A DNA stretch of 64,000 nucleotides from Solwaraspora sp. WMMD791. GTDB taxonomy: Bacteria; Actinomycetota; Actinomycetes; Mycobacteriales; Micromonosporaceae. The stretch spans positions 6,363,001 to 6,427,000 of the forward strand of contig NZ_CP120737.1 of NCBI RefSeq assembly GCF_029581195.1, in the 5' to 3' direction. Numbering within the stretch: the stretch's first letter is position 1; every line of letters begins with the position of its first letter. The notes beneath the pieces were generated by a model. That model saw nothing but the letters and a program-made list of their open reading frames with translations. It had not been told where the DNA came from and searched no databases. The position numbers were made by a program, and so were the translations under genes. Shown in pieces: positions 34,683-37,014 of the stretch.

Positions 34683-35918
34683 TCAGCTGCGGCCGGCTCC
34701 GCCGTCGGCGAAGACCAGCCGGAGGATCCGGTCGTCCTCCGGAGCCGGTTCGCCCCGGCCGTCGGTGTTCGAGGTGGTCACCCAGACCGAGCCGTCAGGT
34801 GCCTGCACGACGGTACGCAGCCGACCGTACTCCTCGGTGAGCAGCGCGCGGGGCTGCCCGAACACGGTGCCGTCGTCGGTCATCTCGACCAGCCACAGCC
34901 GTTCGCCGCGCAGGCAGGCGGCGACGAGGACCCGCTCGACCATGGCCGCCCCCGAGCAGGAGGACTCCTCGGTCGGCCAGACGACCAGCGGATCGACGTA
35001 CCGGTCGTCGTCGCCGGTGCCCTCGACCTGCGGCCAGCCGTAGTTGCCGCCCGGCTCGATCAGGTTGATCTCGTCCCAGGTGCTCTGGCCGAACTCGGTG
35101 GCGTACAGCCGGTCCTGGGTATCCCAGGCGATGCCCTGCACGTTGCGGTGCCCGAGCGACCAGACCAGTGAGTCGGCCGTCGGGTTGCCCGGTGCCGGCT
35201 CGCCGTCCGGCGTCATCCGCAGGATCTTGCCGCCGAGGCTCTCCGGATCCTGGGACAGCCCGGTGTCGGAGGCGTCGCCGGTGGTGGCGTAGAGGTACCC
35301 GTCGGGGCCGAAGGCGAGTCGGCCGCCGTTGTGGATGCCGGACACCGGGATGCCGGTGACGATCGGCTCCGGTTCGCCGCCGAGGGTGAGCCGGGCGATG
35401 CGGTTGTCCTGCGCCGTGGAGTAGTAGATGAACACGGTCTCGTCGGTGGCGTAGTCGGGGGAGACCGCGATGCCGAGCAGCCCGCCTTCACCGCCGCTGT
35501 CGGCCTGGTCGATCGTCTGCACCTCGGTGACGTCCAGCCCGTCGGTGCTGGAACCGGGCCCGACCTGCAGGATTCGGGCGCTGTCGCGCTCGGTGACCAG
35601 CGCCGCCCCGTCCGGCAGGAACGCCACCCCCCACGGCACCGCCAGCCCGCTGGCCAGCACGGTGACCGCGATCTGCTGGTCCACGCCGCCGCCGGTCGGG
35701 GTCGCCGTGGGGGCGGGGAAGGTGGGGGGCGCCCCAGCCTGGTCCGGCTCCGGCTCGCCGAACGTGCAGCCGCCGGCGAGCAGCAGGGCGGTCAGGCTGG
35801 CGGCGACGGTCGCGGTGGTCGTGCGGCGCGACAGACGGCGGTACGGCGACCAGCGGTACGACTGGCGGCGCGACGGCAGACGGGCGTTCACCCGCACCAG
35901 ACTAGCCCGCTGCCCCAT
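34683..35918 (-). CDS. PQQ-dependent sugar dehydrogenase-like lipoprotein (GDH/Hhip beta-propeller)
   Basis: About 411 residues from the ATG at 35918; a later GTG near 35892 is also possible. A long Arg-rich N-terminus with a hydrophobic stretch ends in LLLAGGCTFG, a lipobox, so the protein should be a lipid-anchored extracytoplasmic propeller. GSDH motifs include LASGLAVPWGVAFLPDG, HNGGRLAFGPDGYLYATTGDA, LGGKILRMTPDG and GHRNVQGIAWD. It probably oxidises aldose sugars, but PQQ use is inferred. Its start is 30 bp from the first iron-box-like repeat, which could control it as well as the divergent DUF1540 gene. Confidence 0.83.
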   Translation of the reverse strand: MGQRASLVRVNARLPSRRQSYRWSPYRRLSRRTTTATVAASLTALLLAGGCTFGEPEPDQAGAPPTFPAPTATPTGGGVDQQIAVTVLASGLAVPWGVAFLPDGAALVTERDSARILQVGPGSSTDGLDVTEVQTIDQADSGGEGGLLGIAVSPDYATDETVFIYYSTAQDNRIARLTLGGEPEPIVTGIPVSGIHNGGRLAFGPDGYLYATTGDASDTGLSQDPESLGGKILRMTPDGEPAPGNPTADSLVWSLGHRNVQGIAWDTQDRLYATEFGQSTWDEINLIEPGGNYGWPQVEGTGDDDRYVDPLVVWPTEESSCSGAAMVERVLVAACLRGERLWLVEMTDDGTVFGQPRALLTEEYGRLRTVVQAPDGSVWVTTSNTDGRGEPAPEDDRILRLVFADGGAGRS

Positions 35919-35947
35919 ATCCGCATCCGACGGTGCCCCCGGAACGG

Positions 35948-36035
35948 TCAGGTAAGGGTAACCAAATTGCATCACCTTGCCTTAGGTAAGGATAGCCAAA
36001 ATTATCGTTGTTCGGCTTAGGTAAGGGTTTCCGAA
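35948..36035. promoter_or_regulatory. Three tandem iron-box-like repeats (IdeR/DmdR type), 34-35 bp apart
   Basis: Sites at 35948-35966, 35982-36000 and 36017-36035 match the IdeR/DmdR iron-box consensus TTAGGTTAGGCTAACCTAA at 15, 15 and 14 of 19 positions. Each begins with (T/C)AGGTAAGG. They lie upstream of, not over, the -35 of the DUF1540 promoter, at about -124, -90 and -55, the arrangement used when IdeR activates ferritin genes. No experimental support exists here. Confidence 0.55.
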
Positions 36036-36036
36036 A

Positions 36037-36065
36037 TTGCAACAATTGAATAAGGGCCCTATATT
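36037..36065 (+). promoter_or_regulatory. Strong housekeeping promoter of the DUF1540 gene
   Basis: TTGCAA (36037-36042), 17-nt spacer, TATATT (36060-36065), a near-consensus sigma-A/HrdB promoter immediately downstream of the third repeat. The transcript would carry a leader of about 70 nt. Confidence 0.65.
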
Positions 36066-36141
36066 CGGTCGTAGTGGAATACGGTTTCATCACAGCGGCG
36101 AGGCCGCCGCTGCCGGATGCCGCCGAGCTAGGAGGACCACG

Positions 36142-36441
36142 ATGACCGCGATGATGGAGATGCCCCGCGTGCAGGAGTGCACCGCCGTGGAGTGTGCGTA
36201 CAACCAGCACGAAGGCTGTCACGCCTTCGCGATCACCATCGGCACCGAGGCGGACAGCGCCAGCTGCACCACCTTCTTCGACATCTCCGCCAAGGGAGGA
36301 CTGGACGCCGTGATCGCCCAGGTCGGTGCCTGCAAGCGTGCCGACTGCCGGTTCAACGCCGAACTGGAGTGCCGGGCCCCGTCGATCCGGGTCGGACCCA
36401 GCCGGGACATGGCCGACTGCATGACCTACGAGCCGGCCTGA
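36142..36441 (+). CDS. DUF1540 cysteine-rich protein with internal duplication
   Basis: 99 residues from the ATG at 36142, with a perfect AGGAGG at 7 nt. It has eight cysteines in two identical arrays: C13-x4-C18-x7-C26-x15-C42 and C64-x4-C69-x7-C77-x15-C93. The first array belongs to ECTAVECAYNQHEGCHAFAI, the second to ACKRADCRFNAELECRAPSI, so the gene arose by duplication of one DUF1540 unit. Four cysteines per unit suggest one metal (zinc or iron) or an Fe-S site each. It has no signal peptide. The iron-box-like repeats upstream hint at a role in iron storage or handling. Confidence 0.88.
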   Translation: MTAMMEMPRVQECTAVECAYNQHEGCHAFAITIGTEADSASCTTFFDISAKGGLDAVIAQVGACKRADCRFNAELECRAPSIRVGPSRDMADCMTYEPA

Positions 36442-36495
36442 CCTGCCCACGGACAACCGGCCGGGCCACCGGCACCGGCACCGGCCCGGTCGGGC

Positions 36496-37014
36496 TCAGT
36501 CCACGACCGGGCTGCGCCGTTCCAGCAGCACCACGTCCCGCCAGCGGCCGTCACGTCGACCGATCCGCTGCCGGGTCCCGACCGTACGGAAACCGGCGCG
36601 GGTGTGCACCGCCAGGCTCGCGCCGTTCTCCGGAAAGATCCCGGCCTGGACCGTCCAGATCCCGGCCGACTCGGTCGACGAGATCACCGCGTCGAGCAGC
36701 CGGGTGCCGACGCCGCGTCCCTGGGCCGCCGGGGCGACGTACACCGAGTTCTCCACCACGCCGGCGTACACCGGCCGGCTGGAGACCGCGCTGACCGCGG
36801 CCCAGCCCAGCAGGGATCCGTCCGCGTCGTCGACGGCCACCCACCGGTGTCCCGCCAGCCGACCGGCGTCGAACGTCGCCCAGTCCGGGGCGGTCGTCTC
36901 GAAGCTGGCCAGCCCGGTGTCCAGGCCCGCCTGGTAGATGCCGAGCACCTCGGCCGCGTCGGCGGGGCGCATCGCCCGCACCCGTACCGTCGCCGTCGCG
37001 TCATCGGTCCACAT
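36496..37014 (-). CDS. GNAT N-acetyltransferase (phosphinothricin acetyltransferase-like)
   Basis: 172 residues from the ATG at 37014. The sequence begins VRAMRPADAAEVLGIY, has the acetyl-CoA loop YVAPAAQGRGVGTRLLDAVI (Q/RxxGxG/A), and ends with GIFPENGASLAVHTRAGFRTVGTRQRIGRRDGRWRDVVLLERR, the pattern of the Pat/Bar/MddA branch that acetylates phosphinothricin, methionine sulfone or sulfoximine. It stands alone. A TAGGTT box 7 nt before the ATG suggests a leaderless transcript. Confidence 0.85.
   Translation of the reverse strand: MWTDDATATVRVRAMRPADAAEVLGIYQAGLDTGLASFETTAPDWATFDAGRLAGHRWVAVDDADGSLLGWAAVSAVSSRPVYAGVVENSVYVAPAAQGRGVGTRLLDAVISSTESAGIWTVQAGIFPENGASLAVHTRAGFRTVGTRQRIGRRDGRWRDVVLLERRSPVVD

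Follow-up and report, generated by a model that had tools for sequence, protein, structure and literature searches.

The DUF1540 gene of Solwaraspora sp. WMMD791 is preceded by a tandem array of three iron boxes, all of them upstream of a predicted promoter. Judged by comparison with related genomes, the array is a real, conserved iron-regulatory element. Activation of DUF1540 by IdeR appears to be its most likely function. We favor, with some confidence, the view that iron-loaded IdeR raises DUF1540 transcription and that the protein handles abundant iron. The mechanism of IdeR is already known, and DUF1540 would be a putative new target for it. The link to iron boxes gives DUF1540, a domain with no assigned function according to PMC7677010, a concrete and cheap test.

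The array and its predicted promoter

The following features were read in the window, the whole 64-kb stretch of DNA that was analyzed (positions are those of the window):

34683..35918, minus strand: divergent glucose/sorbosone dehydrogenase-like gene (PF07995, E 6.6e-70); the start is one candidate, by reading
35948..35966, plus strand: iron box 1 (outer), TCAGGTAAGGGTAACCAAA, 15/19 against TTAGGTTAGGCTAACCTAA, matrix score 21.3
35982..36000, plus strand: iron box 2 (middle), TTAGGTAAGGATAGCCAAA, 15/19 against TTAGGTTAGGCTAACCTAA, matrix score 23.8, the top site of the window
36017..36035, plus strand: iron box 3 (nearest the gene), TTAGGTAAGGGTTTCCGAA, 14/19 against TTAGGTTAGGCTAACCTAA, matrix score 22.0
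36037..36065, plus strand: sigma-70-like promoter TTGCAA-N17-TATATT (TTGCAA 36037-36042, TATATT 36060-36065)
36130..36137, plus strand: Shine-Dalgarno-like AGGAGGAC, 4 bases before the DUF1540 ATG, by direct reading
36142..36441, plus strand: DUF1540 gene, 99 aa, with two four-cysteine repeats (PF07561 profile match)

On direct reading the three boxes share one orientation and are spaced 34 and 35 bp apart. An earlier note on this DNA had described 19-bp sites matching at 14-15 of 19 positions every 34-35 bp, and its coordinates proved exact to the base. Each box is a 19-bp palindrome near TTAGGTTAG(G/C)CTAACCTAA, the form of IdeR/DtxR/DmdR operators. Box 3 ends at 36035, one base ahead of the predicted −35 (36037), as the note had also said, and all three boxes lie upstream of the −35.

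TTGCAA-N17-TATATT is the only promoter-like match in 35880-36520, where shuffled sequences give a mean of 0.1. The promoter is identified as a consensus match, and its exact form is missing from two loci of the genus, L003 and L004. The predicted −10 would place the transcription start near 36071, and hence the center of box 3 near −46. Across the boxes and promoter the GC content is 42-48%, with 70-83% on the upstream side and 58-73% downstream. A further match at 35987-36005 (matrix score 22.6) is offset by 5 bp from box 2. This shifted match arises from the repeated half-site; binding at box 2 may be possible in two registers.

Comparison with published motifs and with chance

The scoring matrix was made from the 31 DtxR motifs of C. 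glutamicum with RT-PCR support in Table 1 of PMC1382209, the 9 without such support being excluded. By matrix score boxes 1, 2, and 3 rank 14, 22, and 17 among these 31, close to the published median of 21.3 bits. A scan with this matrix, of the kind that had been proposed as a check, returned the three boxes as the top separate sites of the 64-kb window, the next separate site scoring 14.2. The best score over 30 Markov-shuffled windows was 16.2, and none of the 30 reached the scores of the boxes. That the boxes are chance matches or non-functional relics is barely credible against these shuffles and against the presence of boxes upstream of DUF1540 in nine family codes, even though the outer boxes have been gained or lost within the genus, as relics might be.

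Genome-wide, TTAGGTAAGGCTAACCTAA matches 8 times at 7 places when at most three mismatches are allowed, and the reversed pattern not at all. Boxes 1 and 2 are two of these places; box 3 exceeds the mismatches allowed. One place is beside an HtaA-domain gene and another beside an ABC-transporter ATPase gene. The remaining three have neighbors with no obvious connection to iron (glycosyltransferase 87 plus an unmatched protein; DUF3159 plus a transglutaminase-like protein; a TldD-like protein), so a box match alone is no proof of an iron gene. The exact tandem AGGTAAGGNT-N12..40-AGGTAAGGNT has no second occurrence in the whole genome.

The array within the genus

The box nearest DUF1540 is present in all seven genus genomes sampled. 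The number of boxes varies: three in two genomes, two in three, and one in the remaining two. The spacing is 34-35 bp in all five genomes with multiple boxes, and the sequence between boxes has largely diverged. The promoter hexamers are similar and equally placed in 5/7 genomes, altered in L004, and unrecognizable in L003. As regards the array proposed in the earlier note, therefore, its nearest site and its spacing are kept in the genus, but the triple array is not a conserved unit. It is better seen as the most complete form of an array that varies around one constant site.

Conservation across DUF1540 loci

Searches of 200 Micromonosporaceae genomes found DUF1540 relatives in 100, and those of 394 genomes of the class in 59; 80 of 162 named relatives were also taken, 76 of them bearing the name Micromonospora. 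Altogether 237 loci were read, 215 of them distinct (22 duplicates were left out, as were three weak matches from the family and six from the class). A box of at least 14/19 within 300 bp upstream of DUF1540 is present in 83 of the 215 distinct loci, compared to about 0.6 in Markov shuffles. The independent matrix gives 81/215, compared to 4/206 in the stretch 600-900 bp upstream. Absence of the repeats from relatives had been named beforehand as a finding that would count against the proposal; at least one box is present in every sampled genus genome and in these 83 loci.

Boxed loci make up 67 of 164 in Micromonosporaceae (f1) and 16 of 51 outside it, the latter from eight families: f39 (6/6), f20 (3/5), f31 (2/3), f2 (1/2), f29 (1/12), and f3, f44, and f47 (1/1 each). 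Of these, f2, f44, and f47 are no longer boxed when scored by the matrix. On a protein tree that is weakly resolved from few columns, box presence is clustered, with 18 changes vs. 66 in shuffles (260 bp scanned). From this distribution, the DUF1540 protein probably belongs to iron handling in several bacterial families.

The remaining 132 of the 215 loci have no upstream box that reaches 14/19; iron control is therefore not general to the DUF1540 family. The HCHTF subtype of Micromonospora has none in 75 loci, f19 none in 11, and f21 none in 3. Several HCHTF loci (L015, L020, L023, L028, and L029) share by eye an element, roughly GCCTAxxATCGG, about 30-60 bp upstream. With another short element and no box, this subtype may be under different control. 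A separate element, GAYCTGSG-like, stands some 11-16 bp past the box, at a near-constant distance, in f39 loci L126, L128, L132, L229, L230, and L232; the similar GACCTGCGG is seen in L208, L210, and L212 (both by eye).

Which gene the boxes serve

The outer box had been placed 30 bp from the start of the divergent sugar dehydrogenase gene. This holds for one candidate ATG, which 29 bases separate from box 1; the gene may also start elsewhere. A role for box 1 at the dehydrogenase is weakened by its presence in only 2/7 genus genomes. It is very unlikely that the boxes serve the dehydrogenase and reach DUF1540 by proximity only. Beyond the nearness of box 1 to that one candidate start, the pattern points the other way: DUF1540 has boxes in front of it in lineages with different neighbors, and within the genus the box kept in 7/7 genomes is that closest to DUF1540. 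Among the 17 boxed loci inspected, with open reading frames picked crudely, no neighbor is common to all, which indicates that the boxes go with DUF1540. The array probably does not serve the dehydrogenase gene.

Activation or repression

A search of the genome found one PF02742 protein, and its closest match is M. tuberculosis IdeR (1fx7, E 6e-73); an IdeR ortholog is thus encoded in the same genome as the array. Two Lsr2 genes are also present. In plentiful iron, Fe-loaded IdeR, as two dimers per 19-bp box, would fill the boxes upstream of the −35. Bound IdeR may then raise DUF1540 transcription by recruiting RNA polymerase. Alternatively or additionally, it may clear the AT-rich DNA of a silencer, for example Lsr2, as at mycobacterial bfrB. 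The DUF1540 protein, with its two four-cysteine sites, would take part in handling the abundant iron.

The opposite direction of control is fairly unlikely but deserves a hearing. Here Fe-loaded IdeR would bind the array and repress DUF1540, and the gene would be made when iron is scarce, like the uptake genes. Repression is the main reported action of IdeR (PMC8464063). Furthermore, box 3 is so near the −35 that dimers bound to it could block the polymerase.

Distance from the gene was one way of comparing the two. In 82 of the 83 boxed loci, 73-223 bp separate the end of the nearest box from the DUF1540 start codon. IdeR/DmdR-repressed uptake genes (siderophore-interacting proteins, ABC importers, HtaA) have the 19-bp box in common with the DUF1540 array, and as a control we used 30 siderophore-interacting-protein loci of Micromonosporaceae (a match in 52/61 genomes), taking the nearest in-frame start. 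A box of 15/19 is present in half of them (15/30). The distance from these sites to the closest candidate start is −1 to 36 bp in 13/15, and 66 and 106 bp in the other two; the DUF1540 distance, in contrast, is at least 73 bp in all but one locus. The contrast favors activation, although it is suggestive only, owing to the nearest-start choice in the control and to the distant sites of some C. glutamicum genes that are raised in a dtxR mutant, a point for repression. In Table 1 of PMC1382209, the sites lie as far as 254 bp away at genes raised in the mutant and 37-111 away at the three lowered ones. On these figures, start-codon distance alone cannot separate activation from repression.

A stronger argument for activation, drawn from sequence and analogy, is the predicted promoter with the boxes upstream of its −35, taken together with the literature. 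In excerpts of PMC10317159, activated genes tend to carry multiple boxes, as does the window's DUF1540 with three, and repressed genes generally have one, in the promoter. The siderophore-interacting-protein genes of Micromonosporaceae do not share the upstream and often multiple boxes of DUF1540, which argues against repression. At least two boxes (13/19 or better) are present in 36 of the 83 boxed loci and one in the other 47; 33 of the 39 spacings in the multi-box loci are 20, 24-26, or 34-35.

The closest parallel is bfrB of M. tuberculosis, which has tandem boxes upstream of the promoter, as predicted for DUF1540: four boxes, one of them partly over the −35 (PMC10317159). IdeR displaces Lsr2 there (PMC10317159, PMC9132128), and both proteins have genes in the present genome. 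The differences are in the number of boxes (three in the window, one to three in the genus) and in the target, a ferritin at bfrB and DUF1540 here, where IdeR activation and Lsr2 binding are predictions. In C. glutamicum, ftn, dps, and sdhCD have DtxR sites upstream of the −35, an arrangement like that predicted at the window's DUF1540, and these genes fall in the dtxR mutant (PMC1382209). Each has one listed site, and the products are ferritin, Dps, and succinate dehydrogenase instead of DUF1540. In line with the premise of the earlier note, that sites upstream of the −35 usually activate, these three papers describe storage genes activated by IdeR or DtxR whose sites precede the promoter.

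The ferritin promoters of the family itself lend no support to activation. As a control, 8 loci were read, and none has a site within 250 bp upstream; five have a 14-15/19 site 251-325 bp upstream, perhaps belonging to a bfd gene ahead. The family's ferritin genes are thus without a DUF1540-like layout, which argues against a simple common rule. Read by eye, the distance from the box to the presumed −10 varies by lineage, from about 24 to 68 bp. Helical phasing of the two was considered and rejected, as 24, 44-45, and 54 fit turns of the helix but 50, 59-60, and 62-68 did not (by eye).

The DUF1540 protein

The PF07561 profile matches residues 12-45 (E 1.5e-10; 41.4 bits vs. the curated cut-off of 22.1). 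The profile identified the first repeat and alignment the second. With a score above the cut-off and the four conserved cysteines, the protein is a DUF1540 member. Its eight cysteines, in two sets of C-x4-C..C..C, are invariant across 55 diverse aligned sequences, which suggests two four-cysteine sites holding one metal apiece. No solved homolog was found by sequence at E 0.1 or better, and the structure model, which is weak and carries little weight, had no fold match. The protein has no match to PF00210 (ferritin).

The literature on the domain is varied. C. difficile CdeA (PMC7677010) is a DUF1540 protein with four conserved cysteines, as in the window's protein. But CdeA is an exosporium protein, whereas the window's form fits two repeats into about 99 aa, and its relatives have iron boxes upstream in many lineages. 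DUF1540 proteins of Firmicutes have been compared to the small subunits of cytochrome bd clusters (PMC5322542), and a DUF1540 gene is tabulated in a differential-expression section (PMC6886795). Iron is not mentioned in the DUF1540 passages of these three papers. The word DUF is absent from the main texts of the IdeR/DmdR1 papers PMC8464063, PMC12161575, and PMC10317159; an earlier listing of the gene under another name is possible, the scope here being main texts.

Iron storage and ferritin

A search for PF00210 proteins that was positive in 14/14 control genomes found none in the window's genome or in any of the 7 sampled genus genomes. Neither was a PF04454 encapsulin found in the window's genome. 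The hypothesis that DUF1540 stores iron draws on this lack of a ferritin-family gene in the genus and on the eight invariant cysteines. Among 200 family genomes, DUF1540 occurs in 56 of 66 without ferritin vs. 44 of 134 with it (Fisher p 2.6e-12, uncorrected for kinship; here and below, genomes without a match are the remainder of each draw, and genome counts lack phylogenetic independence). For the family, the majority state of each genus gives the table 6, 8, 27, 3 (p 0.0017), with 5 genomes of unlisted genus left out. In Micromonospora (g4), 24 of 36 DUF1540 genomes are without ferritin, and many carry the boxless form.

Across the class the sign is reversed. In 394 genomes, ferritin is present in 53 of 59 with DUF1540 vs. 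231 of 335 others (odds ratio about 4), and three of the six DUF1540 genomes without it are Micromonosporaceae. This tendency to co-occur speaks against storage. Replacement of ferritin as a general rule was accordingly rejected, although replacement within Micromonosporaceae is possible.

It is quite conceivable, if a little short of probable, that IdeR control is real and yet the protein is no iron store, which is compatible with activation. The site could be of the zinc, rubredoxin-like, or Fe-S kind, and the protein could do redox or regulatory work suiting plentiful iron. Two four-cysteine sets would hold perhaps one metal apiece, a small number for bulk storage. Positive control by DtxR extends to sdhCD, which encodes an iron-using enzyme (PMC1382209), and most DUF1540 genomes of the class have a ferritin-family gene as well. 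Against this, nothing speaks positively for a particular metal or partner, and the structure model is weak. A bolder proposal is that two-repeat DUF1540 buffers or passes iron in actinobacteria, iron-induced and independent of ferritin, with IdeR switching it on as it does a mycobacterial ferritin, and with part of the ferritin duty falling to it in Micromonosporaceae where ferritin has been lost. This we regard as quite unlikely. Were DUF1540 shown to be iron-induced, IdeR would have a widespread target that it activates beyond the ferritins, and this genus, with no PF00210 protein found in 7 sampled genomes, would be a place to ask about iron safety without ferritin.

Boxes downstream of DUF1540

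Matrix scores of at least 15 are found in the 300 bp past the DUF1540 stop in 32/214 loci, so downstream windows are no clean negative control. Eighteen of the 32 are the entire MKTLL/MRTLL clade (L203-L206, L208-L213, and L215-L222), and 14 are in genus g30, where L169 resembles a different repeat. In all 18 members of the clade, which span seven genus codes, a second box is found 28-268 bp past the DUF1540 stop and a same-strand DUF2470-like gene follows DUF1540. From its sequence the arrangement is a two-gene iron-box locus. In L216 and L221, about 33 and 54 bp lie between the end of the downstream box and the start of the DUF2470-like gene. The DUF2470 domain is known from HugZ-type haem oxygenases. 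Pfam confirmed it in the three proteins scanned. A DUF2470-like gene is also present in four Micromonospora loci, there upstream of DUF1540. In g30, iron-box-like sites lie 4-9 bp past the DUF1540 stop in L176, L187, L191, L192, L194, L201, and L202.
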